Positions 23,719-55,970 of a stretch of DNA of 64,000 nt are shown here, in pieces. Made by a program: the position numbers and the translations under genes. Source of the DNA: Polytrichum commune (Eukaryota > Streptophyta > Polytrichopsida > Polytrichales > Polytrichaceae). How positions within the stretch are numbered: the first letter of the stretch is position 1; every line of letters begins with the position of its first letter. The DNA lies in the NCBI GenBank assembly GCA_950295325.1, contig OX485805.1:51236758-51300757 (forward strand), written 5' to 3'. The notes below the pieces were generated by a model, which was not told where the DNA came from, ran no database searches, and saw only the letters and a list, made by a program, of their open reading frames with translations.

Positions 23719-24088
23719 GTGGGTATGAGCCCAAAATGAGTGCTCATATTTGTTTTATGTTTAGAATTTATTTAGAATTGCATTTGGAGTGTTATTGAAA
23801 CAATCAAAAGTATAAAAAGAGTGAGGCTTGGTGTGGTTTATGTTTTAGGCTTTAAGCCTATTTTGTGTGGTTAAGTAGAAGCTTAGTGATATTAGGGAGT
23901 GTTGTGGTTAAGTGAGTAGTGGTTGATGAAGCAAGAGGAAGGTCCTTGGATTTAAATGTTTGAATTAGAACATGCTCTTGTTGGTTTAAAGGGTGAAGGT
24001 TTAGTGGATAGGATAAGGTCCTACTAAGTAGGAGAGTGCTAAGGGGCTTGTGGTCTTGGGTGCCCTCTCCTCCTCCTCCTCCTCTCCT

Positions 24089-24092
<4 letters not shown>

Positions 24093-24139
<47 letters not shown>
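24093..24139. repeat. (CT)n microsatellite
   Basis: About 23 uninterrupted CT dinucleotides, preceded by TCC repeats, lie inside element A at the same relative position as the CT-rich tracts of element B (about 34824-34850). Confidence 0.9.
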
Positions 24140-24140
<1 letters not shown>

Positions 24141-24242
24141 GGAGTGGGAGCTCTTAGATTAACAAAAAAGAATGTGTGAATTAGGAAGTATTTTAGTAGA
24201 ATTAGTGAGTTGTTGTTAGAGTAATTAGTGAGGGGGCTCGTT

Positions 24243-25326
24243 TGACCTTAAGTCGGACTTGTTTAATTCGGACTGGGAAGTCCCATGGTAGCGGCTGGAC
24301 TTGTTTACTTCGGACTGAGAGGCCAAGGGGCAGCTGGACTTGTTTACTTCGGACTGAGAGGCCAAAGGGCAGCTGGACCTGTTTACTTCGGACTAAGAGG
24401 CCAAGGGGCAGCTGGACTTGTTTTCTTCGGACTGAGAGGCCAAGGGGCAGCTGGACTTGTTTAATTCGGACTGAAGGCCAAGGGTAGCAGTTAGACTTGG
24501 TTAATCGGACTGGGAAGTCCCAAGGGGCAGTTGGACTTGTTTAATTCGGATTGGGAGCCCAAGGGCGGCAGCATGACTTGGTTAATCGGATTGGGAAGTC
24601 CTATGGTAGCGGCTGGACTTGTTTACTTCGGACTGAGAGGCCAAGGGGCAGCTGGACTTGTTTAATTCAGACTGAAGGCCAAGGGTAGCAGTTAGACTTG
24701 GTTAATCGGACTGGGAAGTCCCAAGGGGCAACTGGGTTTGTTTAATTCGGACTGAAGGCCAAGGGTAGCAGTTAGACTTGGTTAATCGGACTGGGAAGTC
24801 CCAAGGGGCAGCTGGGCTTGTTTAATTCGGACTGAAGGCCAAGGGTAGCAGTTAGACTTGGTTAATCGGACTGGGAAGTCCCAAGGGGCAGCTGGACTTG
24901 TTTAATTCGGATTGGGAGCCCAAGGGCGGCAGCAGGACTTGGTTAATCGGATTGGGAAGTCCTATGGTAGCGGCTGGACTTGTTTACTTCGGACTGAGAG
25001 GCCAAGGGTAACAGTTAGTCTTGGTTAATCGGACTGGGAAGTCCCAAGGGGCAGCTGGACTTGTTTAATTCGGACTAAAGGCCAAGGGTAGCAGTTAGAC
25101 TTGGTTAATCGGACTGGGAAGTCCCAAGGGGCAGCTAGACTTGTTTAATTCGGATTGAAGGCCAAGGGTAGCAGTTAGACTTGGTTAATCAGACTGGGAA
25201 GTCCCATGGTAGCGGCTGGACTTGTTTACTTCGGACTGAGAGGCCAAGGGGCAGCTGGACTCGTTTAATTCAGACTGGAAGGCCAAGGGTAGCAGCTGGA
25301 CTTGTTAATCGGATTGGGAGGCCGGG
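24243..25326 (+). repeat. 39-bp minisatellite array with 78-bp dimer structure
   Basis: The base unit is 39 bp, starting GGACTTGTTTACTTCGGACT and ending GAGAGGCCAAGGGGCAGCT, present roughly 28 times with variants. In the middle part, two variant units alternate as a dimer of about 78 bp (one with TTGGTTAATCGGACTGGGAA, the other with TTGTTTAATTCGGACTGAAG). GGACTGGGAAGTCC in one variant can fold back on itself. An 81-codon open frame at 24242-24487 is just translation of the repeat. Confidence 0.9.
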
Positions 25327-25929
25327 GATACTTAGCTAGTGGGTAGTAGAACGGGTTGGGCTTGGAGCAAGGTTACATACCTTGGAGTAGTATGGGATTT
25401 AGGCAATTGCCCAAAGGGTTGAATGTGCAATATTATGAAGGGAGAAGGAGCCTACGAGATGGACAATAGATTAGGTTATAGCTAGTTAATAGAGTTAGCA
25501 CATAACGTTAGTTAGAGGATTAGTCATTAGCAAGTTGATTGACCACTATACATTATAAGGTGGCAATAGGAGATGGACTTGTGATTGAGTTGTGTGGAAT
25601 TGTACTTGAGTGTGCTAATAGTGCCATGATATAGAAGAGTGTTTCTTAACACTTGTAATCTTGTTATGGAATAAATTGGTGTGTACGGATTGATGGGAAA
25701 TGTGATGGATTCTCACGAAGTTGGTAAGAGGGAGCTATGTGAAACGAATGTGATATCCATTCCCACACCCGGACTAGGACGCTTAAGGGTGTGTGGTTTG
25801 GCCTCACAGTGGGAGCCTTCCGTTCCCTCAAGCTCGGCAATTGGATTTCAACCATGAAGCATTGAACTGGGAGGGGAATGGAGAAGTATAAATATGAACA
25901 CATGGAGGGCAAAAGGTAGCCGAGCATTG

Positions 25930-26860
25930 CAAAGACAAAATATGATCAGTCTCAAATTCTTTGTAAGATCCAACACATCGGTTGGGATGAGGGAGGTTTG
26001 GATCACTTTCAAGGAACTAATGCCAAAGGCTATAACTTTGGCAATGATTCTAATCTAGTCATCAACAATTGTTGAACAAAGATTGAATTTTGTTTGAGCC
26101 ACAACCCAAGTACGAAAAATCTAACCTTTGGTGTCCCAAACATCATCAATGCATTGAATGGTCAATAAGGTCAAGATCCGTTGTCCACCAAATATCGGCA
26201 TGCAGACCATCAATGCAATCACGTGGTGGCAATTGGTATGTCCCTTTGACAATCACTTTCTAAGCCACACTAATATGCCCCATATTTTGGAGTTGAAACA
26301 ACTCTAGTATTGCTAATTAATAGTAAACCAATGAAGGATAACACCCAACTCCCCCCTCTGATGGGTTGCACCTCGCAAGTCATGAATAAAGCATGAGTTG
26401 AAGATTAAATTTCCCATGATCCATGGCATGAACATTCCATTTGCACAAAGGACTCATTCTGATGGCATCAAGGTACACCAATCCTAAATCATCATTTTTT
26501 TAGTGCAACATTCCTTCCAGCTAACCCTAGTGCGTGTTATGTACTCTTTGTTGAACCAAAGGTAGTTGCGGACAATGGTAAGAACTGATGGTGGACAACA
26601 AAATATGATTGGCAATTACAACCTCCTAACCATGGTGAGTTTCAGAGCTATAATAGTTGAGTTTCTTAGACATTCTTGTTGAAGAGAAATTGGTAAACAT
26701 CCAAAGTTCTAAGGTTGAGATCAAATGAAGTGTCAAGGAGTTTAGACAAGTCTCCCTCCTAAACCCACTTCCATCATATTTGGCTAGCAATGAATAAAAT
26801 TTGGGACTACCAAGGATTTTTATTATTAGTATTTTTTTTCAAGTTTATATTGGGTGTTTG
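25930..26860 (-). pseudogene. LINE ORF2 C-terminal (thumb and beyond) remnant
   Basis: The minus strand reads EVVIANHILLSTI near 26640, WFNKEYITRTRVSWKECCTK near 26550, then LGLVYLDAIRMSPLCKWNVH, matching the post-RT pattern of L1 ORF2 (W-rich hinge, VSW, then a GGLG-like and L.KW motif). It resembles the end of the RT fragment at 12590-13560. A G12-A-G9 run lies just upstream on that strand (26874-26895). Element A was inserted just to the left. Confidence 0.65.
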
Positions 26861-26895
26861 ATTAGTTAGAAAAGGGGGGGGGGGGAGGGGGGGGG

Positions 26896-27250
26896 ATGGG
26901 CACCTCAACAAATAAAAGCCAAGATAAATAAACACGTCACCTTTCCCATACAAGAAATTACTTTATTCATATAAGCAACTTTACAAGTGAAAGGCTTCAA
27001 AAACCTCATCCATAATATAATTGTGCACAATGACATATTCAAGGTGGTTGCATTGGAATTGCTAGACCCTTGCTCAAAGGATGCCAATGGCATACCACAC
27101 CTGATAGAAACAACATCACTAGAGGTAACATGTTGTGAGGGCAATTGTTGATGTTGGCAAGGACCAACATCAATAGGTTGCAACACTTACATGCACACTT
27201 CGCGTCTGCCCACTACAACCAACATTAGCAAGGCCATCGGCGACACCTTC
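26896..27250. other. No recognised gene
   Basis: A minus-strand open frame at 26905-27186 continues upstream of the LINE remnant but has no motif I recognise. It could be a further LINE part. Confidence 0.35.
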
Positions 27251-27289
27251 CATCAAATCCTCCTACAACCAACTCTCTTCTAAATCCCT

Positions 27290-28330
27290 CCTACCTAATA
27301 TCCATATTGATGGACCTCAATGGAATCACCCATGTCGGATAGGAGTAAAATTGATCACTCTTGCACATGTGATAGAGCATCCCAACAAGAGTAACACCCA
27401 AATACTTCTTCATATGAAAATGTGCCCATTGATGGGCCCTTTGCAAAATATTGATACGAGAGGGACTCAAATGATTGTTCAAGCCCACCTTCCCAAAATT
27501 TCCTTATTCTATCTTCCCTTCATTCATGTCATTGACAAAGACATTGTGGTGCATGAATTCAAAATGCTCGTCCCCGTAGTTGAAAGTATGCAACCCTCCA
27601 TCTCTCAACCTCTTGCAAGGAACAACATGGTTGGTCAGAGAATTCTCATCTCACCTCAAACAAAGCTTGATTTTCTTATTCAACAACGGTAGACTACTAA
27701 AATTCCCCTTCACAATCATTTGAAAAAGTTTTTGCGTCATTGTTTTGCAACATTCCATGGAGCACAAGCCCACAATGCATTCCTCCTCAATGAATTTTCT
27801 CAACTTCAAAAGAAGCACAATGTCACTATCCATGCCGCCCACCATAGTTGTCACATATGCCTCAACATACTTGAGAGGAGAATGAGCTCGCTCTTGTGCT
27901 TGAGAGCGAGTGAGCGCTCTCATCCACAAAGCCATGACAATTGCAATCAAAATCAACACTCACATGCAATATAGGACATTCAGCCTACAATAGAGAATGT
28001 GCAATGTCTAACGCGCTAAAAAAACATTGACAACATGCAAGCCATAATGTTGGAGACATGGGAGTAACTGGAGACGTTAGAGATGTGGGAGTCGTTGAGA
28101 CATTAGAGACATTGGTTTTGTTGGAGACGTTGGAGTTGTTGAGGAGCTTGGATATGCAAACGTTGTTGCCTTCCAAAGCAACATAGAACATTTGAAAGCA
28201 TTTGGTGGCATTTCCGCGAGATCTCCACATTGCCCTTGTTGCCATCATGACTAGGCTCCCATCCAAACCAACTACACAATTCAACCCCATAAACAACCTC
28301 CCCTTTCTTTCAAAATACACACCCAACTTT
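27290..28330 (-). pseudogene. Uncertain transposase-like remnant
   Basis: On the minus strand the 113-codon frame 28326-27985 contains LNCVVGLDGSLVMM and, about 30 residues on, MFYVALEGNN. This is reminiscent of the GLDG...VEGEN spacing around the first Asp of MULE transposases. Further minus frames follow (27959-27651, 27488-27291) with stops between. A short run of GTTGGAGAC(G/A)TT-like repeats interrupts the frame near 28070-28140. The family call is a guess. Confidence 0.25.
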
Positions 28331-31189
28331 CAAAATAAGCTCTGGAACACAAAGAACTAGCAAACTCTCAATAGAAAGTTTTCTCAAAGAAGGATGAAAC
28401 CCAAGATTTTGTCTCTCTTTGAGGGACTTTACGGATAACTCCAGTGTAACTTGTGATTTTTTAATTGACATATGTGGGACCTATATTTGTAAGATCTTGA
28501 CCAACATCGGACATAACCGCTCCTATTTTTAAGTTTAAAATGTGGAACTATAAACATGAAATGAGTCATGATGTTAATCCAAGAATGTAAACATCAATCA
28601 ATCAAACTAACGGAGCAAAGTCAACCATTTTGTAGATGTTTGATGCAATCCATTTTGGGATCCCTTTGCATAACATAGGAATGGGTGATCAAATTATTTG
28701 TTCAAGAAAGCAAATAAAGTTTGTCATAACATTATCTAGCTAAATATGTACGTTTGGTGGGACCAAGAATAAGTCAAATTTTATTTGGAATTATACTCTA
28801 TTTATTATTTCAACATAGCAATACACTGACAAATTCAATCTGATAAACTTGAGTGAAGTAGTGTCAATGATATTATTAGAATGAAACATATAATAGCAAC
28901 CAAGTGATGTTTTGGTCATTGCACCAAAAAAATACATGGGTTTAGAATTAATACAAGGATGTACGAAAACCTTTGTCAAAGAGCCATGTCAAAAGGGGAC
29001 TAGACTGGACTCTGGAGACACGACCAATGGACAAAATTGATGATTATTTCTAGGATCCTTGTGATCTCCCTCTCAGCCTCGGCTCCAGGTAATTGGGTGC
29101 ACATGTGGTGTATTTATTAATGAATAGAGTCTTCGGACCATATTTGACTGACAAGAAAGAAAGAAAGAAAGGGATCATATCTCCCATGTTTTAAGCATTT
29201 ATTGTTATTTGATTTTTATCATACAATGTTGGTTTTCCAATACTCAGGGTTGTTTTACACACATACCAAGAGTTGTGATCATCAAAATCTAAGGGCTTTT
29301 AAAAATAATTCATAGGTTGTATTATGTGAAATTGATGGGCCCTCAAACTAAATGTAAAGTGTAAGGTGGATAGTGTTGAAGGACCGCAACATAATTTCAA
29401 TTTCGGGTTTCCATTGTGATAATATAATATTTTTAGAAGCCAATGGTAATATAATTCATTATCATGGTCCCAAGATTTGTGTTAGGCCCAACTCTTTTTG
29501 AAGAGCCTAACACAATATCTGGTAGACCATGAAACATTAACCACTTGCTACTATGTAGGAAGCCATGTAGACTTTCATCCATTCAAATTTCTTTGGTCCC
29601 TTAGGCCTTCAAGGTCTTGTTTGAAGTGCACTCATACCATCTTTGGCTTCATGACCAATCACATGATTTGGATATCAGGGGTCAAGGACCCTCAAGCTCT
29701 AGTATAAAGTGACCCTCATATTTTAGGACATTGTAGAATTGTTGTAGTGTGCAAGACATTACTTATTAGAAATTAAGATAGAATTGAATCTATGTGCAAT
29801 CACTTAATGTGGACTTTAGATTTCTAGAGAGATTGTTTTCTTTGAAAGTGGTGGCAAATACTATGTGCAAGAAGTCTCAAGATCTTTACAAAGCGAGAGG
29901 TATTTTTATGCACATTGCTCACTTTAATAGTGTTCTTATATGCATGTGCAATGATGCATGTAGAAGTCCCCATTTTTGGGTGACAAATATTTTAGTAAAA
30001 CACTTTATCTCACAAAAATATTCAATTAAAACAATCATAACATTATTCAATTGCATGTTAGTATCCCATTCTATATTGAGAATGTGACATGGGCAACCAC
30101 TGTATTACCTTCATGGGAAGAATATGATGCCGGCACAAATAATGAATAGTGATAGTATGAATAGTATGAATATTGTGAAGAATATTGGTGTTTCCAATGA
30201 TAGTGTTGATATGCATAATATTTGTAGGGAATAATTATGAGATGAACAATGTCTCTTGCGAGTATTCATGGGATGAATAGTGTTTCCTGCACATAGTGCT
30301 TGAAGTATAACTCTATCAAAATTTCCAAGTTCAACCTTGATGTGTGAATACCATATGAATATTCTTACTATGTTTGCAGCCACAGAATATATTGGCATAT
30401 TCCAAGGTCATGGAACCGACTCACATGGCTGAATAATGTTATGCTACTTTGATGGCACTCAAATATGTCTTGACAATATTAGGTAGAATGATATGTAAAG
30501 AATACACACTAATATGTGCAATTGGGTTGCCTCAAAGTAATATAATGATATTCCATACTATCTTGAATTTTTACTTCCACAATTTGAAAATTTTATTTAT
30601 TTATTTACTGTGGTTGCTATATGGATGAATAAACAAAAATATTAGTTTTTGTGCTAAGGTTTTGACCCATGGTAAATTGCATGTATATAGGGGCAACCTT
30701 TTTGCGAATGCAACCTAATGTAGAATGTGCTAATTCCAACCCCTACTTAGAGCGTCTTGATGCATGCCACCTAATCCCGTACACATGAGCACACCTACAA
30801 CTATCCAATTTTCTTTGGCACAAAGCAGGCGGATTTGGGTGAAAAGCGGGGACGTTTTGGTATAATGTGGGGTAGGTTTTGGTCAAGTGTCAGAATGTAG
30901 CTAAGGATGGATTACTTATATGTTTTAATCCCGCATCCAAGAACAGCCAAGGGATCAAATTTTTATTGGGTGGAGTGTTAGTTTCAGTGTGAAGATGGTT
31001 TGAACAAAGGTTGGGGATGGTCTAGGAGAAAGTGAGGATGGTTTTGGAGGTAAAAATGGGGGCCATTTGCAATGGGAAAACCAAACCATTGGTCTACAGA
31101 GGGATTTAGGAGGCTAGGGGTAAGTCACAACTTCAAAATTTTGTAGTATAATGATATGATATGTAGTTTATTCTACTTGTGTTTCTAAC

Positions 31190-31190
<1 letters not shown>
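28331..31190. other. No recognised gene or element
   Basis: The sequence is AT-rich. Open frames at 29498-29707, 29794-30087 and 30398-30111 (minus) have no motif. The region around 30150-30310 has loosely repeated ATGAATAGT words. No ends or duplications were found. Confidence 0.4.

Positions 31191-31191
<1 letters not shown>

Positions 31192-31221
<30 letters not shown>
31192..31221. repeat. (GA)n microsatellite
   Basis: About 15 uninterrupted GA units. Confidence 0.9.
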
Positions 31222-31223
<2 letters not shown>

Positions 31224-31725
31224 ACGATTCACCTTGATCATAATTGCTTGCTCATATGTAAATCCCATAAGGGTTTATTGAGCATGGTATGGGGCAAATG
31301 CTATTGCCTCTTGTTGAAGGTGGTCATTATGAGTAACCAAATTAAGAAGAAATTAAAGTGTGTATCACTATGTGTATCTCTAGAGTGGATTTTATGAGGG
31401 TAGGATATTTATAGTTCTCGTAACATGTGTTGGATTTGATTCCAAGGGTTGGTAGGTTAATTTTGTGTCTAAAATAATTTCTTGGACACCTGGTTGTAGG
31501 GTTCGTTCTTGGAATTTTGGTGTTGGTAGAGGTTTTTGGTGGTATCTTAGGTGGGGGTTATTGGTTGTTGATGGTTTTGTCAATATGTCTTGTACCCCTT
31601 GGGTCGCCTCAGATGTCCTCCTAGCCCTATTTCCTACTAGTGTTGTGCACACCCTACCTAAAACATTGTAGGTATCTTGTAGCTATCTTCACACATTGGT
31701 GCTCAAATGTTGTCGCGCTACTCCT

Positions 31726-32065
31726 CGTAGGTCTCCACGGATATAGGGCCACGAGTCTTTTGCCACGATCCCCCCTTTGGAATACCTTATTTACTATATG
31801 CTTCCTCCAGAGATAGATAGATAGAAACTCCGGTCCCTTTTAAGGGGCCGGCGTGAATAAAGTGTCCGTTCGTAATGCCAATGACCCGATGCCCACGTAG
31901 GTCTCCACGGATATAGGGCCACGAGTCTTTTGCCATGATCCCCCCTTTGGAATACCTTATTTACTATATGCTTCCCCCATAGATAGATAGATAGAAACTC
32001 CGGTTCCTTTTAAGGGGCCAGCGTGAATAAAGTGTCCGTTCGTAATGCCAATGACCCGATGCCCA
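31726..32065. repeat. Two tandem copies of a 170-bp unit
   Basis: The unit begins CGTAGGTCTCCACGGATATA and ends CCCGATGCCCAC; the second copy starts exactly 170 bp after the first (31896). Only a handful of substitutions separate them, so the duplication is young. Each unit contains (GATA)3-4 and a CCTTTTAAGGGGCC inverted motif. The unit overlaps the presumed 3' part of the SINE to its right. Confidence 0.85.
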
Positions 32066-32345
32066 CCGGACAAGGGGACATTGGGACAATACTACTCTCC
32101 CCTTTCGAGGATGGACACTATAGTGACACACTATACTAGTTCCTAGCTAGCCACTAGTGTCTTGAAGATACCGGACATGGTAATCCCCCCAAAGGACTTT
32201 AGGTACCCATACAACAAGGTCCAAGGACCCCCCACCATAGTTGGGTGGACTAAGGTGGTGAGCACCACGCCGGCATGGGGAATAGAACCCACAACCTCCT
32301 CATTGGGGGCCATGAACCCTAACCACCAAGCCAAGGCCCGTGGTG
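31870..32345 (-). mobile_element. tRNA-derived SINE
   Basis: On the minus strand the head has an A-box-like TGGCTTGGTGG (32323-32333) and a B-box-like GGTTCTATTCC (32279-32289), spaced as in tRNA genes, within a weakly tRNA-like 5' part starting near 32345. The body continues leftward, and the likely 3' end is the TTTCTATCTATCTATC tail near 31978-31996. Boxes A and B are internal RNA polymerase III promoter elements. Each box has about one mismatch to consensus. The left limit is approximate because of the 170-bp duplication. Confidence 0.6.
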
Positions 32346-33120: not shown

Positions 33121-33123
33121 AAC

Positions 33124-33955: not shown

Positions 33956-34265
33956 AATTCGGGGAGTGAGATGTATGGTTTGACCTCCTATTTGGGAGAC
34001 GACTTTGGCTAGTCCGAATCATACTAATCCCACCATCAATAACCCGAGCTGTTACATTTGGTTTCATTTGTGGTTGTATAGACTTTGTTACCCAATGGTG
34101 ATAACAAACTTACCACCTCCAAGTCCCTACCACTTCAATGTAACCTCAATGTCTGTCCAAGTAGGGATGTTCATGCAATATGGAGAGAGGTTTCTGGGTT
34201 ATTTAGGCATAGTGATGAAATGTTCTTTGTTTATGGCCCCTAAGTTTCTCTCTGTTTACCCATGG

Positions 34266-36582
34266 TGTGAGCCCAAAGCGGTGCCCACATTTAGTCTTAG
34301 CGTTAGAAAATATTAGTTGGTGTGCGTTGAAGTGGTGTATCACTTCACAAAAATATAAAAAGAGTGAAATGTTAGCCTTAGAAGTACAATGTTGTAAGAG
34401 GCTAGCATGTGAGTGGTTATTGTATTTTTACCTTAGAAAAGGATTGGAGTGAAGTAGGGTAGATAGGAAAGGCTTAGATCAAATGGTTAGTGAGTAGGCT
34501 AGTACAATGGATGGAGACAACCAAGGTGACTCAAGAAGCAAGTGCATTCGAATTGGGATGAATGGAGGATCACATTGAGCGCACAAGTGGACCACCTCGT
34601 CGTGGCCACTTAATGGGGAAGGTCCAAGGAAGAATGCAAGATGGAGGATAAGCAAATTCTAAAAGCACCAATCAAATTACGATTTAAGCATCGTGGTTTG
34701 AATTAAAGTGGTGAGTGACAATTTGGGAAGGTAAGGGGAGAAAGTTATGGCGGCGGAAAGTGGAGGAGGCTAAGTTTGGGTTGAGCACTCCCAAGGGGGT
34801 CCGAGGTAAGGTGGGGGATTGCTCTCATTCTCGCTCTCTCTTGTTGATGTTAGGAAGTGAAGCTCTTAGAGCTCATGAGGAGGATGTGACTTAGTTAGTA
34901 GGAAAAACTCTTGTACTTAGAGGCAATGTGTGGGAAATTAGTGGGGTGAATTAGTGTAGTTAGTTAGTCTCTCTCTCTTGGCTCTCTTTTCTTCTTGCCC
35001 TCTTGGCACCTCATGTGGTGTGTGTGGGTGTGTGTGGAGTAAGAAGGGTGCACGTGTGGTGCAAGGTTCTAGGTAGAGAACCGAGGCAAACTAGTTTTTA
35101 GATTGGTTTTGCATTGCTTAGATATAGTATTTGACTTAAGGCATTTAGTGATAGTGTTTAGTTCATAGTGTTCACCTCATAGCATTTAGTTTATAGAGCT
35201 TAGTTTGAACCATTAAATTGGCGCACTCAGTTGGTATTAGATGATGGTACTTATTTTGAATGGTTTAATATTTGGCCAAAGGCCCGAATTGTTGAAGAAG
35301 GAACATGACTTTTGGAGAAGGTGCTGGGAGTCCGAGACTGGGTAAGCTGTAAGCTGGGATTAGCTCTGCAGCTGGGCCTAGTTAGCTGCAGTTGCTGGTC
35401 AGGGCCACTTCACACATGAGCCAAGAGCTGTGACCTTGTAATGTTGAGCCGAGACTGTTGGTGGCAACTGAAGCCGAGACTGGGAACTGCATTAATTAAA
35501 TCAAGGGAGCTGCACTAACCAAGCTGAGATCAAAGGAATCACCAGACGGCAGCTAATTAGGGGAAGGTGGCTATGATCGGGGAGAATCGGCAGTTGGTTA
35601 CAAATTGTTTAAAGGACATCTAGGCCAATCATGAGCCATGCTAATTAGGAGATAGGCTAATTGCGAGTTGAGCTAACTAAGGAGCTGGCAAATTAGAAGC
35701 CGGACTATTTGAAGTTAGGCCAGAGAGGAGCTAGCTACGTAGGAGCTGGCTAATCAAGGCCAAGCAAATCAGGAGCTAGCTACCGTACTTAGGAGCAGCT
35801 TAATTAAGGGCCGAGCAAAGCAGGAGCTAGCTAATTCGAAGCTAGCCTAACTAGAGGAGGGCTAACAAGGAGCTGGTCTCTGTCTGCGGGGAACAGGTGC
35901 CTCAAGGAAGAAAGTGACGGGCGATGACGGGCGGAACAATTGGAGAACAACGCAAAATTACACCCGGAGATTTGAGACTGAGACCTCGGGAAGGGTCTTG
36001 TTGGAGACTGCCGGGGTTCTTCTATGGGGGAATCTACTCACCTTGAATGAAAAAAATGGAGGAAGATAGAAAAATGAGGATTTGGTGATTGTGATGGACC
36101 AAGAGCCACATTCCTAAGTTTTTGAGGTTGGGGTGGTTGTGTTTAAGTGATTGGTAGGGTAGGAAGCTTGAGGAGTAGACTCGTTGGGCTTGATGCTTTG
36201 ATTGTGAGACAATAAGCCTTGGAGAAAAGTATTTCTTAATACTATTCACTTGGATTGTCAAATAAAGATTTGTGTGTTTGGATGCTTCCATGCCATGCAT
36301 GGTGTATTGAATTATTAAGTAGAGGTTAAAAAGTTGATCCTTGCACTATGGACTCAACAACCAAACCTAGTGAGGAGCTCAAGGACCCTAAAGAAGTGAA
36401 GGTAACCATTGGTAAAAGGAAGAAGGGAATATCCGCTTGGGCTTGCGCGTACAAGGCAAGGAATTGGACACTTGAGTCATCAAAGGACACATCCAAGCCT
36501 AAGGCCAATGCCACGGAGGAATGTGAGCCCAAACCCACTACTCGGACTACGAACGCTTAAAGGTGGGGGGTTTGGCCTCACA
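34266..36582 (+). mobile_element. LTR-like element B, 2317 bp, TSD CATGG
   Basis: It begins TGTGAGCCCAAAGCGGTGCC and ends GGTTTGGCCTCACA, flanked by perfect CATGG duplications (34261-34265 and 36583-36587). TATAAAAAGAG starts at 34354, 88 bp from the left end. AATAAA is at 36261-36266, farther from the end than in A, C and D. A degenerate tandem stretch with AGGAGCTAGCTAAT-like units fills about 35640-35890, the same relative place as the minisatellite of A. TGACGGGC repeated twice near 35918 is shared with element C. No proteins are encoded. Confidence 0.85.
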
Positions 36583-36587
36583 CATGG

Positions 36588-36915: not shown

Positions 36916-36920
36916 TTATG

Positions 36921-38491
36921 TGTGAGCCCAATATGGTGCCCACAAGTATTCTTACCCCTTATAAATCAATTGGACGTCGGTGGGATTTTTCTTAATTATT
37001 TTAAAGGCATAAAAAGAGTGGTGTTTTATTGCTTAGTTTAGTGGTAAGTTAAGGACTTATTCCTGTTCAAGTAGCTCAGTCCTTGAACGATGATATCAGA
37101 ATTAGTAGTGTGAAGCATAGGCTTGAGTTTTAAACCTTGCAATTGAGTTAAGTGTGCGGAAATGTTGAAGGAGGGAAGTTTTTTAGTTAGGCTGGGGAGG
37201 AGTAAGAAGGGCAGCTAGCTTCACAGAAATTGAGCTGGCAAATGGGATCAATTAGGCCAATGCAAAGAGGCAAGGGTTTTAGAAGCGGAATAGGGGTCTT
37301 CCCTTGTCTGATTAAGGGTAGGGGTAAGCAGCTGGAGGGTTTATCCTCTACGAAGGAGGCTTGAGGCGGAGAGAGGAGTTGACAGGCGGCAATGAGAAGA
37401 GGAGGATAACACACATAGGGTCTGGGATTACGGCAGGGAGAGATTTCGATGTGAGAGAGGCGGCCTCAGACCCTCAGGAGATTCTGGCAGCAAGAAAAAA
37501 AAACATGACAGAAGGAGTGGCTGTAGTTGAGGAGGCCAAAAATGGTAGAAGGGATTGGAGGCGTTGAGGGAACAGATCTGGATGGGTTGCCAAGCTGGGA
37601 GGCAGTCCTCGGAGGGGAGAGCCATGAGGAAGGAGGGCAGTTGGAACGAAGGCATTCGGGTAGTGGTTGGGGGCAATCAAACACAACAAAATGGCTGCGA
37701 ATTGACATTGAATTATGCGGAGAGGTCGGACAGATTGAAGGGCCGATTGTAAACACTTACAATTTGGGTGTAAAGGCACGGAGGTATTGTGCCTCCCTGG
37801 TGCTAATTGGACCGAGAATAGGTGGCAGGCTTAGACCATAGTTATGCTTAGTTACGATCTGGCCGAGGGTGATGCCTGAACATGTTTAAATGACGGAAAG
37901 TTGGATTGGAAGGAGGGGAAGGCTTGAGGCAGACTTGAGCGGAGCAGTTGGCTTTTTCCTCCCACCTGGCTCTTCTCTTCCGCAGTGAGAAGTCTGGATG
38001 GTAGCTGACCATGAAGGGGCACTGTGCTGGGGGGTGAGTGACGGGCATTGACGGGCCAGGGGAAGCCATGAACAACGCATATTTACAGTTTGGGAACCGG
38101 GACTGAGATCGATCCAGGGGATCAGCTGGGAGCTATTAAGGATTTGGGAGGTGCCGGATGATTAGTTAGGTGAAATGGGGAAGATTAGGTTAGGTAATTA
38201 GGGGGTTTAGTGACTTAAAGGACCACAAGGTGTAAGGCTTAGGCCCTTAGGAGGGGAGAAGAAGGGAGTGTGTGTGAGGTTAACATGGGAGAGAGTGGAA
38301 GGGAATGACCACAATTGTAAAAAGCATTTCTCAATGTTTGTACCAGTTATTATGGAATAAACTAGTGTGTTGATGGTACTATCGAAAGAGCCTGAATGAG
38401 ACTAAGGTAGAAGAATGTATTAAGAATCAAATGTGAGCTACATGCTCTCACCCGGATTACGACACTTAAGGGTGGGGGTTTGTGGCTGACA
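36921..38491 (+). mobile_element. LTR-like element C, 1571 bp, TSD TTATG
   Basis: It starts TGTGAGCCCAATATGGTGCC and ends GGTTTGTGGCTGACA, with TTATG at 36916-36920 and 38492-38496. The promoter-like CATAAAAAGAG starts at 37008 (87 bp in). AATAAA is at 38356-38361 (135 bp from the end). It is the shortest copy and lacks the minisatellite. Several overlapping open frames at 37350-37850 are GC-rich by-products without motif. Its duplication differs from that of B, so the two are independent insertions. Confidence 0.85.
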
Positions 38492-38496
38492 TTATG

Positions 38497-41530: not shown

Positions 41531-41663
41531 AAACTTGAATTGGGATGCATTAATAACCAACCTATACGGGTCAGTTTTTACTCTCATCCACTCGGTAGGC
41601 GTTACGAAACCAAACCGGAGTAACAGTGGTGGGACCCACCTACATCTACTAAAGGGAAAGACA

Positions 41664-42212: not shown

Positions 42213-42279
42213 GACTTCTCTCCTTCCTTCTTTCCTCATACTTAGCTAACACACTTTGAGAGTGGCTCCCCCCCTGCAA

Positions 42280-42526: not shown

Positions 42527-42579
42527 ATTGTTGACAGGGTTTAGATAGATCAGCAGACTAGCTGCTCAAGCCCTGCAGA

Positions 42580-43080: not shown

Positions 43081-43151
43081 ATAAGGTCGTTGGGTCGTTG
43101 AGTATCATATAGCTAGGCGGTGTCCAGAGAGTGAGATTGGGGGTTGATTGG

Positions 43152-45270
43152 ATGGGAATATCAAATGTTCATGAGGGAGGGAATTTGGATCCGAGTGGGC
43201 TGCCGCCTGGGTTTCGGTTCCACCCCACTGATGAGGAGCTGGTGAGCTACTACTTGACCAAGAAGGTGACCAACAGCAGCTTCGCAGTGCACACCATTGC
43301 TGAAGTGGGCCTCAACAAATGCGAGCCTTGGGACCTTCCTGGTATGGACCATCACAGACAGAGAATCACTTGCTTCTTAATCTCTGCAGAAAGGCTGGCA
43401 CAGGAACTTTGGGTTCTGGGAATGGCCGATACCTTATGGGATGGCAAGTGCCGTCAAATGATCGGGAAATGGGAGTGACTTATAAACACTGATTGTTTGA
43501 AGCTGGCAGATTTTCTTTGTTAATCACTTGAACTTGCTGGCTTTGAGCTTAACCGGCTTGCACCACCAGAAGCCAATCTCTGGGTTATAAGATCCCCTCC
43601 AACCCATAAAAGATTTGCTAAAGTACTCTCTCTTCAAGAGTTCGTTGATATATTATATCTGACTGGTGTCGACCGCATTTTGCGACATCCAAAGTGACTG
43701 AATTTGAAAAGTAATAGGAGCTGAAAAGTCCAGCTCCAGTCATCGGAAGCGTATTAGTCTTCTAGAAACATAATTCTCCCCTTATTTCATATCGATCCTC
43801 AAGATCAAGAATGATCACACAATCTGTAAGCCAGAAATGATGTTTTTCGTCACTTTGACGGTTGTGTGGAGCTTCAAAACTGCAAAGTGGAAATGATTTG
43901 GAATTTTTGTTTGGTTGTGCAACAGAGAAAGCCAAAGTGGGGGAGAAGGAGTGGTATTTCTTCAGCCTGCGGGACCGCAAGTACCCCACTGGCATGCGCA
44001 CGAACCGAGCCACCGACGCTGGCTACTGGAAGGCCACCGGCAAGGATCGCGATGTCACCAACTCCCGCTCTCGCGCGCTAGTGGGCATGAAGAAGACGCT
44101 CGTCTTCTACCGCGGCCGCGCACCCAAGGGCGAGAAAACCAAATGGATCATGCATGAGTATCGCCTCGAAGGCGACAGTTGCCCTCCCGGTATCAACAAG
44201 GTATATAGGCCATACCGTCGAATTGTTCTGTAAAGTGATCGATTTTGATGCCCCGAGACGAATGCCTGCCAACCACGCTATGTGACAGATTTACGAAAGG
44301 CTTACGTCTGGGCAGCTCCCTATGGGACTCTCAGTGCTTCCCAAGATTGTTGCTGCATTTTGTATTCCTCAGCATATGATCGCAGTCTGCAAAATCACAC
44401 ACGATGGACGAATGAGAGTGATGATGCTTTTAAATGGTTTTGAGGTCCATTGTTTGACTTTTCTTGTTGGTTTGTTTTCTGAATGCACAGGATGAATGGG
44501 TGGTGTGCCGGATCTTTCAAAAAAGCTCAGTAGCAAGACAGAGCTTCCTGTTTTCGGAATCCCACCTGATACGGCAGTACATGAGCCGGCAGTTTGAGGA
44601 GGGACGATTCTCTCCCTCCTCTGTCCTCGATCACACGTTCAACTCCACCGGACTCAGTGACGAAGAGAATTGCACCGATTGTGAAACCGACCATATACCC
44701 TCCTGCCAAAACAGAGCACCACCGGTGCAGCAGCCGCCGTGGAATGTTAATGCAGCGAGACCGAAATCTGAGACCGAGGTTCTACTCCATCAAGTCAGCA
44801 TGAACATGCCAGCCTGTGACAACGCTCAGGAAGGCTATGCTGCAACCAAGCAAAATCTCTCAATATATGACATGTATGACTCCATAGCCGCCAAAAATTG
44901 CAACAACACGGCATTATTAACAAGGCCGGTGATGTCGATCGCTCCACAAGACTTTGTACAGCCAAAGACCGAATCCTCCTCGTTTTGTAGGCTTGCTGGC
45001 GATGATGAAGCGCAGAGCTCCCACCGGGATCAGGTGGACTATGGCAACTCATGGGCAGAAGAGGCAGCTTTCTACTTCGGTGCTGACGCAGGGCAACGTG
45101 TGCAGACCGACCCGAATTCGACTTGTACTGCGACCGCTCAGAGTATGTTGTACAGCGGAGTCGATCACTCCCACAACTACAACAACAACAACCACCTCAG
45201 CTTCCCTTTCAAGTACGATGTTTCCATCCCTGTGGAATCCGGCATCCAGGAGCTCCTGTGGGCTTACTGA
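43152..45270 (+). CDS. NAC-domain transcription factor (NAM/CUC-ORE1-like), three exons
   Basis: Exons 43152-43341, 43926-44200 and 44491-45270 join to 414 codons. The ATG at 43152 is the first in frame after a TAG at 43110. Introns are GT-AG (584 and 290 bp); the first splits a Glu codon after EPWDLP, the second is phase 0 before DEWVVCR, both classic NAC positions. All five subdomains are present: A ([19 protein letters not shown]), B ([15 protein letters not shown]), C ([25 protein letters not shown]), D ([30 protein letters not shown]) and E (DEWVVCRIF). The domain binds DNA as a dimer in the nucleus. The C-terminal 250 residues are Asn/Ser/acidic-rich, as in activation regions, ending [10 protein letters not shown]. 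Exon 2 is much more GC-rich than its surroundings. Exact orthology is not decided; no miR164 site is evident. Confidence 0.95.
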
Positions 45271-46870: not shown

Positions 46871-46871
46871 A

Positions 46872-48300: not shown

Positions 48301-48453
48301 TAAGACCAAACTGAATCATGATTTGCTCAATAACAAACAAACAAAAAATGATTTAGATTGATATCTTGAAGGTATCTCTGAATTCATTTCTCTCAAGTTT
48401 CGAGGAGTCCTTTGGATGACAAACTAAAAACAATCACACAATAGAATAGTACA

Positions 48454-49825
48454 TCATAAATTTTGTGATACTTGAGGAACTGCTAATAGTTCTAATTGCA
48501 CTAATAGTAAGAGTTGCTTCAAATCCAAGCAAGATGATTGTCTAATTGTGGTTCTTAATAATATGACATAAGTTAATCGAGGTGCAAATATGTTTCGAAT
48601 ATCAACAATATCCTTGGTTGATATTGTAGCACCTTGTGATTTGAAGTCGGTCATTGCATATGCTAGATTTATTGGAAACGATGCTTTGTAATAGTATTGT
48701 TCATATGTGTTCTTGAGTTGGCAATTGTGACATTTTAAGAAAATCTACGTTGATGCACCTATGAGTTGAACAACCAATCGTTGTGACCACACCGTGGTTG
48801 TGTGTATGGACCAATGTTAATGTTGTGGTTGTACCGTTAACAATACGTTTTGCAACATTGACATTGGATGTAAACATAACAAGCGCACCTACAGGCTCAT
48901 GATGAAGTTGATCAAATTTTGTGTTAGTCAACCATGTCGATACATTGTGAGCTTCGGTTGCATTTGTATTAAGTATCACATGAATTCTTCCTCCTAGGGC
49001 AAAAATTGCTTTGAATATGGTGTCATTATCTACGGTGACATCTTCGTGGTGTGAACATAAGATTGTCGTGGTTACATCTATAAAGTCCGGGAGCATATCC
49101 TTCTCAATGAAACATGTGATGAATGTGTCTTCAATCTCTACTTCTGTAGGTGGTCGATGTCGTATTATATTTAGAAAATTGAGGTACATTGGGTCGGATG
49201 TATGCCAAACAAATGTTTGAAGCGTGTGTTGTTTGGCAGCTATCTAACATAGAACGAAAGTGATATGGCATACTTTATAATTGACATCTGGAACTTTAGG
49301 TGTGTGCATACATATCGCAGGTAGTTGGACAAGTTCCCCAACTAATAGCAACAACTTGTTGTAGAAAAAAGATGTGTCCGTAATGCAGGTTTTTTGTTTG
49401 AGGCATTGTTCCACTGCACACAACATAATACTAGTCATCATCGATATTTTGTCAATGATTATGATGTCTGCGTTCTTTAATTTAGTCAAAACGGAATTAG
49501 GTTCACGTAACACAAACAAATAGGCATGTGCAGGTATACAAAATACAGTGTGGACTTGAAAAATTTGGATGCAACTGCTCTTGTCGTTGTTGAAAAAATG
49601 ATGATTTTATTGTGATTTAATAAAAAATTGGCAATATATTTCACAAAAAAATGTTTTTTCACTTCCTGGAGTGCCTAAGAGAATGTATAGTCTTTGTGGA
49701 CCTTGAACAATGTTGTCCATAACATGTTGTTGTTTCTCAGTGAGCATCATATCTACAATATCAATATCGAACACGAGGTCATTAGGTATAGGTGCTCGTC
49801 TTGAATTCACTCTTGCATGATCCAA
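48454..49825 (-). pseudogene. Pif1-like Helitron helicase remnant
   Basis: The motifs in order are LTEKQQHVMDNIVQGPQRLY, Walker A as LGTPGSEKTFF (GSGKT expected, Gly to Glu), Walker B as IIIDKISMM (DE expected, Glu to Lys), LLLLVGELVQLPAI, a nearly intact 162-codon segment with LNIIRHRPPTEVEIEDTF and LCSHHEDVTVDND, VNGTTTTLTLV, and the C-terminal MTDFKSQGATI. Both nucleotide-binding motifs are damaged, so it is dead beyond its frameshifts. Confidence 0.85.
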
Positions 49826-50572
49826 TGAAGGAACTAAGACATGAATATCTTGTGGTATGTGTTCAGGTTTTAATTATGAATGGTCTTTAATAAGTTGCTC
49901 AAAAAGTTACGATCGTTTCTCTGTGTTTATGAGGTTGCGATGTGCATAATCCAATAATATCTCTTGAATGGTGTCGAAGTTCAAAATATTTCCACAATCT
50001 TGACATTCATGGATATAGCTTTTATTCTTTGGTATGTCAAAGAGAATATCATTTTCATTTTAAAAGGAAATGGTACGAAGGAGGATGTTGAAAAAAAACA
50101 ATCTCTAAATTGTTGGTTGGGTGGAAGTCTATGAATCTCATGACTTTATAGGTCTTGTATATGTGGAAACCAAGCATGTATTTCCCAAAAGATGACACGT
50201 TACATTGGCCATTTTTTTCCATGTCAAACCTCCCAGAAAAATGAGTCAATGTCATATCCTTGCATCCATATGGTATGTTACAATAAATATCAATAGGATG
50301 AAAACTCTTGATCTAGTGACTAGTCTTGTTAGTAGTGTTGGTGGCTTGGAACCGATGTATTTCATAGCAATGTTTTTTTGAATAATCCGTATTTGCAAAC
50401 ACACAAGCGTTGTTTCTGAAGGTGACACCAGTCTAGCTATTATAATAGTTGATATGAATTTAAGTTGTGTGTTAGAAGCTCCGTGAAGTCCCAATCATTT
50501 GGCATTCTTTTAGTATAAGTTTATGGATCCATGGGGCTCACATTCCAGTTCTTATTACAATAGATAGTACGA

Positions 50573-51057
50573 TCAATATGTTAAGTTTATACGTTGCGAA
50601 TTAAATGGGCACCCCATACCAACAAGAAGGATGCATGGGCATGTAATACTCCCACCTTTTAGTTTCGGGGTTGTACATTGTTTTTCTTCAATATGTGGTT
50701 TGGAAGGGAATCCATATTTGCAATTTTTGCAATTAGTTCTTTGTTGCCATTGAGAATTGCATGTATGCAATTGCTTTTTCATCATTATCCTGAATAAATT
50801 ATTTTGATATATGAGTCTATGGGCTCCAAAAATTCTCCAAAGGTTGTCTCAAAGACAGTTGATGTTATCGCCGTTATTTCATTGACTATTGATTCTTTGT
50901 CAACTTGGTTCACCCACAGAATCATATAGGCATGTATAGAGCCTCGCGACTGTAATTTGTATCGTATGAAGTATTGATCGATCGTACCCAAGATTTTGGG
51001 CCCATGTAACAAGATGTCATGCATGAATTTTTCAACACCTACATGAAATAAAGTCAT
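50573..51057 (-). pseudogene. Helitron Rep (HUH) remnant
   Basis: The segment YKLQSRGSIHAYMILWV matches the Helitron HUH motif context (usually RG.IHAHMILW). The second His of HUH is Tyr here, so the metal site would be broken. Downstream LHTCNSQW and CKNCKYGFPSKP match the Cys-rich motif that follows Rep in this group. Confidence 0.75.
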
Positions 51058-51913
51058 ACTTTTGAGTAGGCAATCTTTTCACGACATTGGTGGGTCTATT
51101 ATTTTTGCTATGTCCTCAATATCTCTTTTCAATAAAGAAAATATTTCGTGTACAGTTAAGATAAGAAAGAACTACAACATTTTAATTTTTCTACCATAAC
51201 GAACAAGTCTTATAAATGTGATTTTGTGCCAACGAGGGGTCCTTAGATTGATGCAGCTATATGGAAAGCTAAATCCATGCTGATAAAAAATATAACAGGT
51301 GATCATGCACCCTTTCAAATGTTTTGTTTTTATAATTCTTTTTGTGTCAATGACACCTCTATATAGGTTGACTTGTCATTTGACAAAGCTAAGGAGCTAT
51401 TGAAAACCATGGTTGCTAGCAAGGATGGTGGCACTACATCGTTGTTCCCAACAGATTGCACAATCCCAATCATATTGTCTAAACTTCTAATTCAACAAAC
51501 TTCCGATCCTTTGATATTCTGTCCAAAAAACGTGAGGTGATCATAAGTTTCTACACACTCATATGTAGGTAAGTAGACACAATATTCACCTTCTTTAGAA
51601 TCAATTATTTGGTTCTTTCTTGTTTCCATATTCATTGATATTTGTTCTTTGTAAAGACAATGGACATGTGTATATGTTAGACCATCCATACAACCACAAG
51701 ATAGGTATCGACAACATGCTCGAAGCCCTCCTCTCTAGATAAGAGAAGATTCAAAAAACTTCTACCCATTTTTAGAATATTTTGACATGACAATACTGTT
51801 CAATACGGCCAAAAAATATTTAGCAGATAGGAAGGAAAAACAACTCATTCGACAATATCAAAGTGAAGTAGGTCGAAGTTATAACATAATGAGAGGACGC
51901 CCATCCTCAGACC

Positions 51914-52408
51914 CCCAGGGAGTGCACTGTTCAAGTACTGTATTTATACACGTGGGTGCACAAAAGGGGTATTATTTAAAACAAGCATGTACAAAATGTA
52001 CGTACAAGAGACATATTGCTATTAAGCAAGAAGTAGATATACATGAGGCTATAGAAAAATATATGTAAAGTACGCATTACGCGTTTACGCGTTCAAGTTA
52101 GACATGGACCAAGAATCATGTGTTTTTTCATCCACTAAGTAACGACTTTATAACTAAAAATCCATGATTTGATATTATACATATAATAGGGCCATATTTT
52201 TGCATTTCCAAACATTTGTACACATGTTATATACAATTTCTGTATTTGTTTTTGGACCCTTGTGTATGTATGGAAATGTATTTTGAAGCAATGAGATTTG
52301 TAAGTATATTGCTTGATTTTAGCAAAAATAAAATGTATACAGGGGTATTTTAATAAGGGGCATGCACGCACGTGATGCTTGGTTTTAATGAATAGTGCAC
52401 ACCCTGGG
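51914..52408. mobile_element. hAT-like MITE, 495 bp, 8-bp TSD CTCAGACC
   Basis: The left terminus CCCAGGGAGTGCACTGTTCA and the reverse-complemented right terminus CCCAGGGTGTGCACTATTCA match at 18 of 20 bases. The direct repeat CTCAGACC lies at 51906-51913 and 52409-52416. Eight-bp duplications are typical of the hAT superfamily. The interior has no transposase; a 93-codon frame (51787-52068) crosses the left end and is not meaningful. Confidence 0.8.
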
Positions 52409-52419
52409 CTCAGACCCTT

Positions 52420-53675
52420 TGTATTGGACCATACGTAAATAGCAATTGAATAATAAATGACATATTTTGTTCATCATAATTTTTCAAGGGGTCTATATAT
52501 GTTGCACCTTTTGATCATATTTTTTCTTGCTTATGCGCAGTAGGTTTTATTATTTGTTTAGATCATTTTGAAAACTCGTGGGAGGATCATCTTCATTTTC
52601 AAACCCTAAACAAGTGTCCACATCCCTTGCATTGCAATTGAACTCAGATTATGTGTTTTCACCATTGCCAACTCCATTGCTAGGCTCTGGAATTTAATTT
52701 TCATACCAAATTTGTTAATGTTTTATCATGAATTTGCTAATTCAACATGAATTTTGAAAACAATAAAAGATCGAGAACAAAAAAAGCAATTGAATTACAC
52801 CCACACACCTACTCTTATATCAAAAGAGACATGCCTAATTCAATAATTTGTCTTAATTATACACCTATATTTGAGTGGTGCATGATTTGATGTGGGTACA
52901 CCAACTAGGCATGCTTTCAACAAAAGAAATTAGATTAAGTGCTCAAAACATCTTACTAAGACTCAATATAGTGAACATACTTGGAGAATCATTTAATGAG
53001 CATTCAATGAGCATGAGAATCTCCATTTTGATGATGAATATTCAAACCACCAAAAACCGTGAGGAAAGTGGCTCCGGCCTCAATTTAGATTTGCTAACCA
53101 TTTCATAACCTACTAATCGCATGTTTCAATCCAAGGAGAAATGGACTTGTCACAAAAATAACAACCATTTCAAAGCAATCTACCTTATTAATTATTGTTC
53201 ATCTAACACCCTACACATAGACCACTCTTCATAACTAAACCCTGGCTAGCTAGTCAACAATTTCTATAGATGAGGGAGATGACCGTCCTCCACATCCACT
53301 TCCCAAGTGCTTCAAATTCATCTCTCCACATTACCATTGCATGCTCCATGCACACTTCGAACACGCAACACAACACAATTACACAACACAAACATCACTC
53401 ATCTCCAACAAAAAGGAAGAAACAAAAGAAACAAACAAAACAAATGAAACTTTGCTCTTCACCATCTCATGTTCACCAAGTGCCGCCAATGCCATTCCCC
53501 TACCACCACCACCACCACCACCACCACAAATCTCCCCACACATATATTTGCAACCTCAAAAATCAAAATCGTTAGGGTTCATTATTACTACCGTTCCTAA
53601 AACCAAGGGGTTGAATTTAGACCAGATCGAGGGCAATATAGTTGTGTTTTTACCAAGAGAAGTTGAGTAGGCCAA
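52420..53675. other. No recognised gene; (CCA)n tract
   Basis: An ACC/CCA microsatellite at about 53501-53527 produces Pro/His-rich open frames (53270-53670). Nothing else is recognised. Confidence 0.4.
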
Positions 53676-53680
53676 CATAT

Positions 53681-55965
53681 TGTGAGCAAGAATCCCCCCA
53701 CCCTTGATTGCATCCTCGTCCGGCTGAAAAATCCTTTTCTCACAAATATTAGCTAGGTTAGTCATCATGTATGCTTCCATTCAAGTCAATTGAGGGGGAG
53801 TAGTGTCCATGACATCATTTTATTAAGACATACAAGCATTTACAAATACTTGAGTCACCTTACAATGTCAACACAACACTAAACCAAATGAATCACTCTC
53901 ATACCTTAGTTTAATTGCCCTACCCCTACATATCTAGCCATTGCGCCACTGCTTCACTCACACTCTCACTCTCTTGTTGACGATTCAAGCTCCACATCTA
54001 ACCAAACTTAGAGTCCTTCTAGCAAAACAAGGTTGAGCTTCGCTACCACTGCCAACCTAAAAAGAATGGTCATAGTTGTAACTTCAGCACCGGCTCCTAA
54101 AATTGTCTCAAGCTTATCCTTCTTCTTATCTGCTCATCCTCAATTTGGTCCTCCAATCACACTAAATTCCATGCCACAGTGTTGCCTCAAGGATGGCTCC
54201 AAAGCCATTGACCACAACTTGGAGAGTGTTGCCAAGAATCGATCTTTCCCTCCCCACAGAAAACGCTCCCCAACACGACACCAAAATTTGGAAGCCAATT
54301 TCATCACCTTCCGCAAGTACACGACCTTGAACAAGACTTGCCAGGTTGTCATTTGATACCACCGTCGCTAAGAATGAGGTGTGTATTGTCTTGGATCGCT
54401 CTCACAATCTTGTCCTCCGTGTGCTAGTGTCTCCTCTGTAGTGGTCCGCGAGAGGATTTCACTCCACTATCCTTGGTTTATTACTAGTCTTACGCTTTCA
54501 GAGGTTGGGAGACTTCTTATTGGGAGTGGGTGGTGCAGTTATATAACAATTGGGAGCAGGCACCTACTTCCTTGTTCTGAAAGTGATTCATTGCCCATGC
54601 TCACAAACTCAAGCGGTTGAGGCATGATTTCCAAGAAGTGTCAAGTAATTGATGTGCATTCAGCTACCTCATCTACTGAGAGAAAACATTTCTTCACATC
54701 ATGACTCGCTAACTTCCTCATCTAATGGTTTTCTTGGACTTGCAAGGGGTGTACTACTTTAATTTTGTTAGTCCTTCATTGCAGGCTGAATACTTACCTC
54801 TTGAACACCAGCTTCCTCCTCATAAGTCGTCACCTATGTTCAACACTAGGGGAACTCTGCGGAGAGAGGTTGAATATTTTACTACTCACTAAACGCCCAA
54901 TTCTACTACTAGACATTCCAGAGATTTGAGCCAACCAGGTGCTGCATATTGGTTCCTTCTACTTGTTCAATTAGGATTTAAAGAACCACAAAGACGCTCT
55001 CAGAGATGAAGTGCTAATTGGTTGTAGCACTAGATCTGTGGACTGTGTGCACCATTCAAAATGACGCGATGCCCACTTTGTGTGCTCTAGCATCGACAGG
55101 CTAACCCGGACATGTTACTTTGTCCATCATCCTTGCAATACGCAGATCAGCTTACGCATAATTTCCCCAAAATGTCTACCACACTCTCAGGTTGTTACAC
55201 ATCACCATTTATTGGTGCACAAAGTCAACCACCAGAATAACAACCTCCTAACTCGCATGACAGTCTCATCCAAAGAATTGCAACATTGGCTCTCTTGGGT
55301 GACGAGCACAACGCCATTAGCTTCCAACCTTATGGGGATTCAGATGCGTTCTCCGATCCATACCGGCCATTGCCTGGCACTGTCAACACCCTTCTTGCTT
55401 TCTCTCTCCCCTACTTCCCCTACCTAACTTGTGCATCCCCCCTTCTCCCTAGAATATTGAAAACCCTACCGATCTGACTTTCCCCACCTAACTCGTCATT
55501 GGTGTCCACTTCTTCGCCCAACTTCCTCAAAGAGAACACCTCAATTCTCACAACATTGCATCACTCACCCACATACCCCAGTTTCCACAATCTATCCAAC
55601 GCATACTACAACAACACTACTACTTCCACGCTCCACACCACGGCAAAGTATTTGTGCTTCTCCTCTCTCCCTCCTTTACTTGCCTAGCAGCTCACCCAAT
55701 GAGCCTCTCTTCTCTGGCTCCTGAGACCCCTCCAACTCCATTTTTTTTCCTGTGCTACCTAGCATCTTGGGGCAACCCAAAGAATAAAAACGAGCTCTTT
55801 CCTTTTCTTCACCCTTATCCTTCTTTCTCTTTTATTTTTAGCATAACTTAACTTTTAGTTGCCCTTACCGTTCTAATGTCCTTCCCATTTTTAATTATGT
55901 TTTTCACCCCTAGATTACATTGTCTTTAAATCAATTAGGCATGGGGGCACAATCATGGGCTCACA
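53681..55965 (-). mobile_element. LTR-like element D, 2285 bp, minus strand, TSD CATAT/CATAC
   Basis: On the minus strand it begins TGTGAGCCCATGATTGTGCC (from 55965) and ends GGGGGATTCTTGCTCACA at 53681. Flanks are CATAT (53676-53680) and CATAC (55966-55970), one mismatch. The right-end block CCGGACGAGG...AAGGGTGGGG parallels that of A-C. An AATAAA (minus) lies at 53819-53824, 138 bp from the end as in A and C, and a TAAAAATAAAAGAG promoter-like word lies about 125 bp from the start. No coding remains. It is the oldest or most diverged copy by eye. Confidence 0.75.
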
Positions 55966-55970
55966 CATAC

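Follow-up and report, generated by a model that had tools for sequence, protein, structure and literature searches.

The 64-kb stretch of the Polytrichum commune genome analyzed here (assembly GCA_950295325.1, contig OX485805.1, positions 51,236,758 to 51,300,757), hereafter the window, harbors four long elements resembling the long terminal repeats (LTRs) of retrotransposons, which we refer to as A to D. As read directly from the DNA, element A (2,085 bp, 23724..25808, plus strand) runs from TATGAGCCCA to CCTCACA between perfect copies of GTGGG (23719..23723 and 25809-25813), element B (2,317 bp, 34266..36582, plus strand) from TGTGAGCCCA to CCTCACA between perfect copies of CATGG (34261..34265 and 36583-36587), and element C (1,571 bp, 36921..38491, plus strand) from TGTGAGCCCA to GGCTGACA between perfect copies of TTATG (36916..36920 and 38492-38496). 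Element D (2,285 bp, 53681..55965) is situated on the minus strand, has the ends TGTGAGCCCA and GCTCACA, and is flanked by CATAT (53676..53680) and CATAC (55966-55970), which match at four out of five positions. The initial annotation, made from the window alone, had described these elements as having one common start, a 5-bp duplication each and no coding content. The duplications were indeed found, three of the four being perfect, while the common start applies to B, C and D and not to A. As for coding content, the list of open reading frames contains only two frames of at least 120 codons within A-D, i.e. 23858-24247 in A and 55065-55427 in D, both antisense to the element. Outside the window, a copy in L011 is 87% identical to A over the 5' 372 bp and 93% over the last 43 bp (labels of this form, as well as C1, C4 and C6, denote stretches and contigs of the same 408-Mb assembly).

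The ends are both fixed and numerous across the genome. A right-end pattern was found at 1,442 places and a left-end pattern at 2,367 in the 408 Mb, with zero hits for the reversed controls, and the TG/TA ... CA termini are shared by the window elements and the genome copies, single copies measuring 1.2-2.3 kb. Since the genome searches scored the best candidates only, all copy numbers given here are lower bounds, and the absence of a pair refers to the matches listed. In an unselected sample, consisting of the first 20 left ends listed on contig C1, a right end was present within 2.2 kb in 17 cases and none was in range in the other three. Sixteen of the 17 pairs are enclosed by a 5-bp duplication (15 perfect, one with one mismatch), and in the last one a primer-binding site (PBS) comes after the right end. 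A second pairing of listed left and right ends on C1 gave 12 pairs, four of them also in the first sample, with 11 perfect duplications and one with two mismatches, while 9 out of 21 right ends could not be paired with a listed left end. The observation of four elements with fixed ends and duplications is hence confirmed, chance being excluded by the control counts.

What connects the elements to a coding retrotransposon is the sequence found beyond the right end. Directly after it, the PBS TAAATGRTGCGTCYGCC occurs at 563 places (at most two mismatches; control 0), in the form of an 18-nt site starting with TGG and located 4 nt beyond the LTR, the spacer being TAAT or TAAA. The corresponding primer is presumably tRNA-Gly; no tRNA genes naming it were found in the window or in L012-L015. 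Right ends of the GGCTGACA class are followed by TAAATGRTRCGTC in 4 of the 100 listed. Among the 100 listed of the GGTGGATTTGGCCTCACA class none has a PBS, with one further PBS-like case. In three loci (L012, L013 and L015), the approximately 1.4-1.6 kb after the PBS are shared at 76-84% identity, including a gag-like frame, and the LTRs of the same loci align over only about the last 40-60 bp. A fourth, L014, shares only some 140-160 bp after the PBS with the coding elements. In L016, the continuation of L013, an RNase H domain was identified above the Pfam cut-off, together with gag and protease matches below their cut-offs (E 1e-4 to 1e-3). With the L016 gag as query, 150 of 725 candidates were scored, more than 50 of which fall within a 2,086-codon open frame. 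The last 162 codons read resemble a gypsy integrase tail by eye, with no Pfam match to a chromodomain or any other domain. The assignment to the Ty3/gypsy type is a probable one, made from the RNase H, gag and protease matches.

The most complete configuration was found in L046-L048 (C1:23574010-23593919), where LTR, internal region, LTR, internal region and LTR follow each other in tandem and the whole stands between two copies of ACCTA. The three LTRs, of 1,830 bp each, have the same sequence throughout; a PBS and gag are located within, so that the search proposed in the initial annotation, for paired copies in the same orientation inside one duplication, did yield such a case; no direct LTR pairs were seen in the first three loci examined (L009-L011). 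Plants are reported to have such LTR-internal-LTR tandems commonly (PMC11899658). Compared with the LTR of the tandem element, window element B shows 89% identity in its first 530 bp and 91% in its last 98 bp, while C and D are tied to the coding family through the terminal tens of bases only. Because right ends are joined to a PBS, the internal regions have matches to gag, protease and RNase H, and identical LTRs surround gag-bearing elements, the window elements are very probably solo LTRs. Their source would be a single Ty3/gypsy-type superfamily of high copy number, some members of which were active recently. Two possibilities had been raised at the outset, namely that a large retrotransposon not seen in the window left them as solo LTRs, or that they form a non-autonomous class of their own, and it is the former that these data bear out. 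The latter is not supported, and a separate class is unneeded, a verdict that is weaker for subfamilies known as solo copies only.

Complete elements are ordered as LTR, 4-nt spacer (TAAT or TAAA), 18-nt PBS, leader, a single gag-pol frame, a non-polypurine junction ending in GCCAATTA, and LTR. Insertion of the cDNA by integrase would create the 5-bp duplication. Recombination between both LTRs of one insertion would then remove the coding part and leave a single LTR in the same duplication, which is how we infer each solo copy to have formed.

The junction before the 3' LTR is one of the unusual parts of this structure. The 24 bases preceding it are identical in nine out of nine coding-family copies, only 9 of the 24 being purines, and none of the nine copies has a polypurine tract at this place. 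In the coding family, LTR and internal region meet at CCAATTATGTGAG on either side, on opposite strands (L047:490-551 and L046:1930-1965), where the TGTGAG within CCAATTATGTGAG is part of the LTR ends. CAATTA precedes 3 of the 100 listed left ends, which is what 3' LTRs belonging to other lineages should show. A tRNA-like plus-strand primer in front of the 3' LTR was considered and rejected, the likeness to the PBS complement being weak, since 460 of 20,000 shuffles equalled it, as did 38 of 21,566 other 19-mers. Lacking a polypurine tract, the family is filed as a gypsy-type variant rather than as a typical member. We met no plant gypsy family without such a tract in the literature, within a search limited in library and terms.

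The description of the element interior as hypervariable was also borne out. Tandem repeats, different from lineage to lineage, account for part of this variability. Among 17 elements compared, those of the group starting with TGTGAGCCCAAAATGG are approximately 85-95% identical over the first 390-730 bp (78-84% for L034) and 67-89% over the last 230-580 bp, while the middle is unalignable between most copies, the exception being L026 and L040 at 96-97% throughout. In 12 of the 17, the LTR middle contains a GC-rich tandem repeat starting at about position 700-850, with units of about 41-91 bp and a GC content of 0.53-0.61, compared to 0.41-0.45 around the array. No such array was found in L029, L033, L034, L035 and L039. 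The repeat unit mostly differs between lineages and is common to the close relatives L026/L040, L031/L020b and L022/L020a; 16 of 136 pairs stand out in unit homology (z over 4), led by near relatives. Element A has a tandem repeat of its own at 24255..25323 (plus strand), with a basic period of 39-40 bp and higher-order periods of 80 and 201 bp. For the interior of C, no second full copy was found among the 40 scored out of 738 candidates, and the next-best match extends over 454 bp at 79%. Within the coding family, copies vary in array length, and a segment of about 330 bp, ending 139 bp from the right end, is missing from some of them. RNA structure as a constraint on the repeats was tried and rejected, 116-160-nt pieces of the 17 arrays, taken together, showing no folding advantage over shuffled sequence (sense z -2.7 to 2.5). 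These data point to a fast turnover of tandem repeats in the non-coding part of the LTR, in many lineages as units of about 40-90 bp, with the termini conserved. Similar polymorphic tandem repeats within a retrotransposon family are the minisatellites of soybean Gmr9/GmOgre (PMC3305785). As described there, those arrays are placed between the coding region and the LTR, whereas the present ones are inside the LTR and their units are mostly different between lineages.

Putative promoter and polyadenylation signals, named from their motifs alone, occur at similar distances from the ends. On the plus strand, TATAAAA is found at 23811..23817 in A (87 bp inside the element), a strict TATAWAW box at 34354 in B, and the TATA-related ATAAAAAGAGTG from 37009 in C, at the same place as the box in A and B. 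The initial annotation had reported a TATA-like box 87-88 bp inside A-C and about 125 bp inside D. This stands for A and B in its strict form and for C in a related one, whereas the motif scan found no such box near the left end of D. The AATAAA motif is located at 25670..25675 in A, at about 36261 in B and about 38356 in C (all plus strand), and at about 53824 in D (minus strand). Its reported position near the right end of A, C and D agrees with our 136-144 bp, with B differing at about 322 bp. In the unselected C1 samples, a motif of the type ATAAAAAGAGT (at most two mismatches) lies 88-91 bp inside 17 of 20 left ends, and 13 of 17 pairs have an AATAAA 136-146 bp before the right end. Only 4 of 22 copies have a strict TATA box at the 87-88-bp place, and a further TATATAA is located at about position 701 in the coding family's LTR. 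The transcript bounds may be marked by the AATAAA and the motif near 90 bp, in which case the predicted R region, as placed by these motif positions, would cover most of the element.

How often the coding part has been lost was estimated within the coding family itself. Right ends not followed by TAA numbered 454, the first 100 of which were listed, 76 of these on C1; the search pattern ended in B (which excludes A), so that ends followed by TAA are left out and about a quarter of the remaining ones drop out as well. Seventeen of the 76 ends on C1 could be matched by hand to a gag copy 6-8 kb upstream, and in all eight of these that were examined an internal flank precedes the LTR. Among the other 59, the first 12 were examined and turned out to be 11 single copies, nine of them in a perfect duplication and two in none, and one 3' LTR. 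This suggests approximately 2.5 solo copies per full-length copy, where the full-length share is a lower bound because only 150 of the 725 gag candidates were scored. Single LTRs in a 5-bp duplication are also what is described for plant solo LTRs in PMC7251063, where the regression value of about 2.7 is near ours. The difference from the plant average given there is a far higher solo share in the older groups, where only 3 of 100 listed left ends resemble 3' LTRs and 0-1 of 100 right ends have a PBS. The 100 listed exact LTR-PBS junctions are for their part unevenly distributed, with 42 on C4 and 33 of those at about 41.7-58.8 Mb, a region which may have retained old elements.

Several findings weigh against LTR-LTR recombination as the sole source of the single copies. 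In the coding family, the mean pairwise difference is 0.51% among 11 solo and 0.79% among nine full-length copies, and the mean number of private changes is 1.6 and 3.9, respectively (p = 0.057; one full-length outlier has 17). Solo copies are thus not older than full-length ones, which is at odds with a gradual conversion. Furthermore, no direct-orientation pair at element distance was found among the 24 copies of the subfamily of B, which are 97-99% identical (19 nearly complete and five interrupted or partial, among the best 40 of 2,255 candidates), nor any direct pair in the L040 subfamily (best 40 of 1,779). Finally, not every PBS-bearing copy is complete, given that no 3' LTR was found within 16 kb of L031 or within 20 kb of the copy at C6:25674600. 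The latter has an LTR 98% identical to that of L031 and an interior that is shared over about 1.4 kb and not beyond. The 16 kb after L031 include other coding sequence as well as a solo copy of subfamily B inserted there, and no frame of 200 codons was found in L044. Coding remains downstream of the L031 element (L043:1-714 and L042:7726-8950) belong to DUF4218, a domain presumably tied to CACTA-type transposons.

Of the alternatives, the one that survives best is that some subfamilies spread in trans as single LTRs, i.e. were born solo and not by recombination, although we regard it as unlikely. The transposing molecule would be a double-stranded reverse transcript of LTR length, with plus-strand synthesis starting at the 3' junction and proceeding to the tRNA site, integrated by the enzymes of the coding family. 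It would, in this improbable scheme, be bounded by the two matching CCAATTATGTGAG junctions, which would replace the usual pair of primer site and polypurine tract. Apart from the missing pairs in both subfamilies and the age of the coding-family solo copies, the duplications are in favor. Of ten B copies read at the ends, nine have one (eight perfect, one with one mismatch) and the left end of the tenth is outside the stretch, an eleventh copy, in L042, lies between CGTCT and CGTCC, and ten of ten L040-type copies read at both ends have perfect duplications. The near absence of a PBS in the GGTGGATTTGGCCTCACA class points in the same direction. By our own arithmetic, zero full-length copies out of 24 in B would have a chance of about 0.0003 at a full-length share of 29%. 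With a constant loss rate and the greater age of B, this chance is near 0.05; two B copies differ at 26 of 2,317 bases. The missing pairs in both subfamilies can be explained by their greater age, B being older than the coding family (0.5-0.8%). Also against LTR-only mobility, solo copies are interspersed with full-length ones in the tree (seven label changes compared to a shuffled mean of 7.2), although this tree is poorly resolved, with 15 of 18 inner branches open, and no LTR-only intermediate is known from the present data. We met no report of LTR-only integration in the literature, again within a search limited in library and terms. If it were shown, the customary view that solo LTRs are products of recombination would have to be revised, together with the rates of DNA loss derived from that view.

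Far less probable is an origin from a non-autonomous element whose two LTRs enclose a very short interior, similar to terminal-repeat retrotransposons in miniature (TRIMs) or large retrotransposon derivatives (LARDs), and which recombines so readily that single units remain. Subfamilies B and L040, known as single units only, would fit this, as would the short shared interior of L014. Against it, the repeated followers of 200 listed right ends are of the PBS type (the four in the GGCTGACA class) or a few look-alike pairs, with no other shared interior, and separate duplications flank the two adjoining copies in L020. TRIMs resemble the present elements in being non-coding, in their 5-bp duplications and in their presumed mobilization by related coding elements (PMC4717578). 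According to the same source they differ in having two short LTRs, with subfamilies averaging 685 bp in all, in contrast to the single 1.2-2.3-kb units here. A DNA transposon, suggested by single units with imperfect inverted ends of about 8 bp (TGTGAGCC / TGTSAGSC) and constant 5-bp duplications, is hardly credible, as the unit is the LTR around gag-bearing elements, is followed by a PBS at 563 places, and occurs as the identical LTRs of the tandem element, which contradict this reading. Ordinary LTR-LTR recombination stays the best reading, with LTR-only mobility a minor one.

Judged by shared features, the closest known systems are the plant non-chromovirus Ty3/gypsy elements OTA, Phygy and Selgy (PMC6317226), which are described as sharing gag, protease and RNase H, the 5-bp duplication, and a tRNA primer site other than the tRNA-Met type. 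In Phygy and Selgy, as here, one long frame fills nearly the whole interior, and the missing chromodomain match in our last 162 codons also agrees with a non-chromovirus. The same source names a polypurine tract as a common feature, unlike the nine coding-family copies here. By description only, TARE1 of tomato has LTRs that begin with TA, as does A, but is a copia-like element with 194-bp LTRs (PMC3701649).

A number of other features were found around the elements. Positions 623-3310 (plus strand) of the window contain a degenerate gypsy-type pol, with a reverse transcriptase-like piece by eye (no Pfam match) and an H2C2 integrase zinc-binding domain. A NAM/NAC-type transcription factor gene is located in exons at 43113-45270 (plus strand), two of which have a Pfam NAM match. 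At 48704-49606 (minus strand) are remains of a PIF1-like helicase, with a weak Pfam match below the cut-off, possibly derived from a Helitron. A 170-bp unit is present in two direct copies at 96-97% identity at 31723-32062. Elsewhere, within the stretch at 77.73 Mb on C1, copia-type pol frames were seen by eye at L021:1548-6178 (minus strand), probably a nested element.

With the elements settled as solo LTRs of an identifiable and recently active family, the landmarks described here can be used to annotate thousands of copies. Two of the results touch on the mechanism of reverse transcription, namely that many long open frames occur without a recognizable polypurine tract, and that the LTR middles have been swapped for lineage-specific repeats while the ends stayed fixed.

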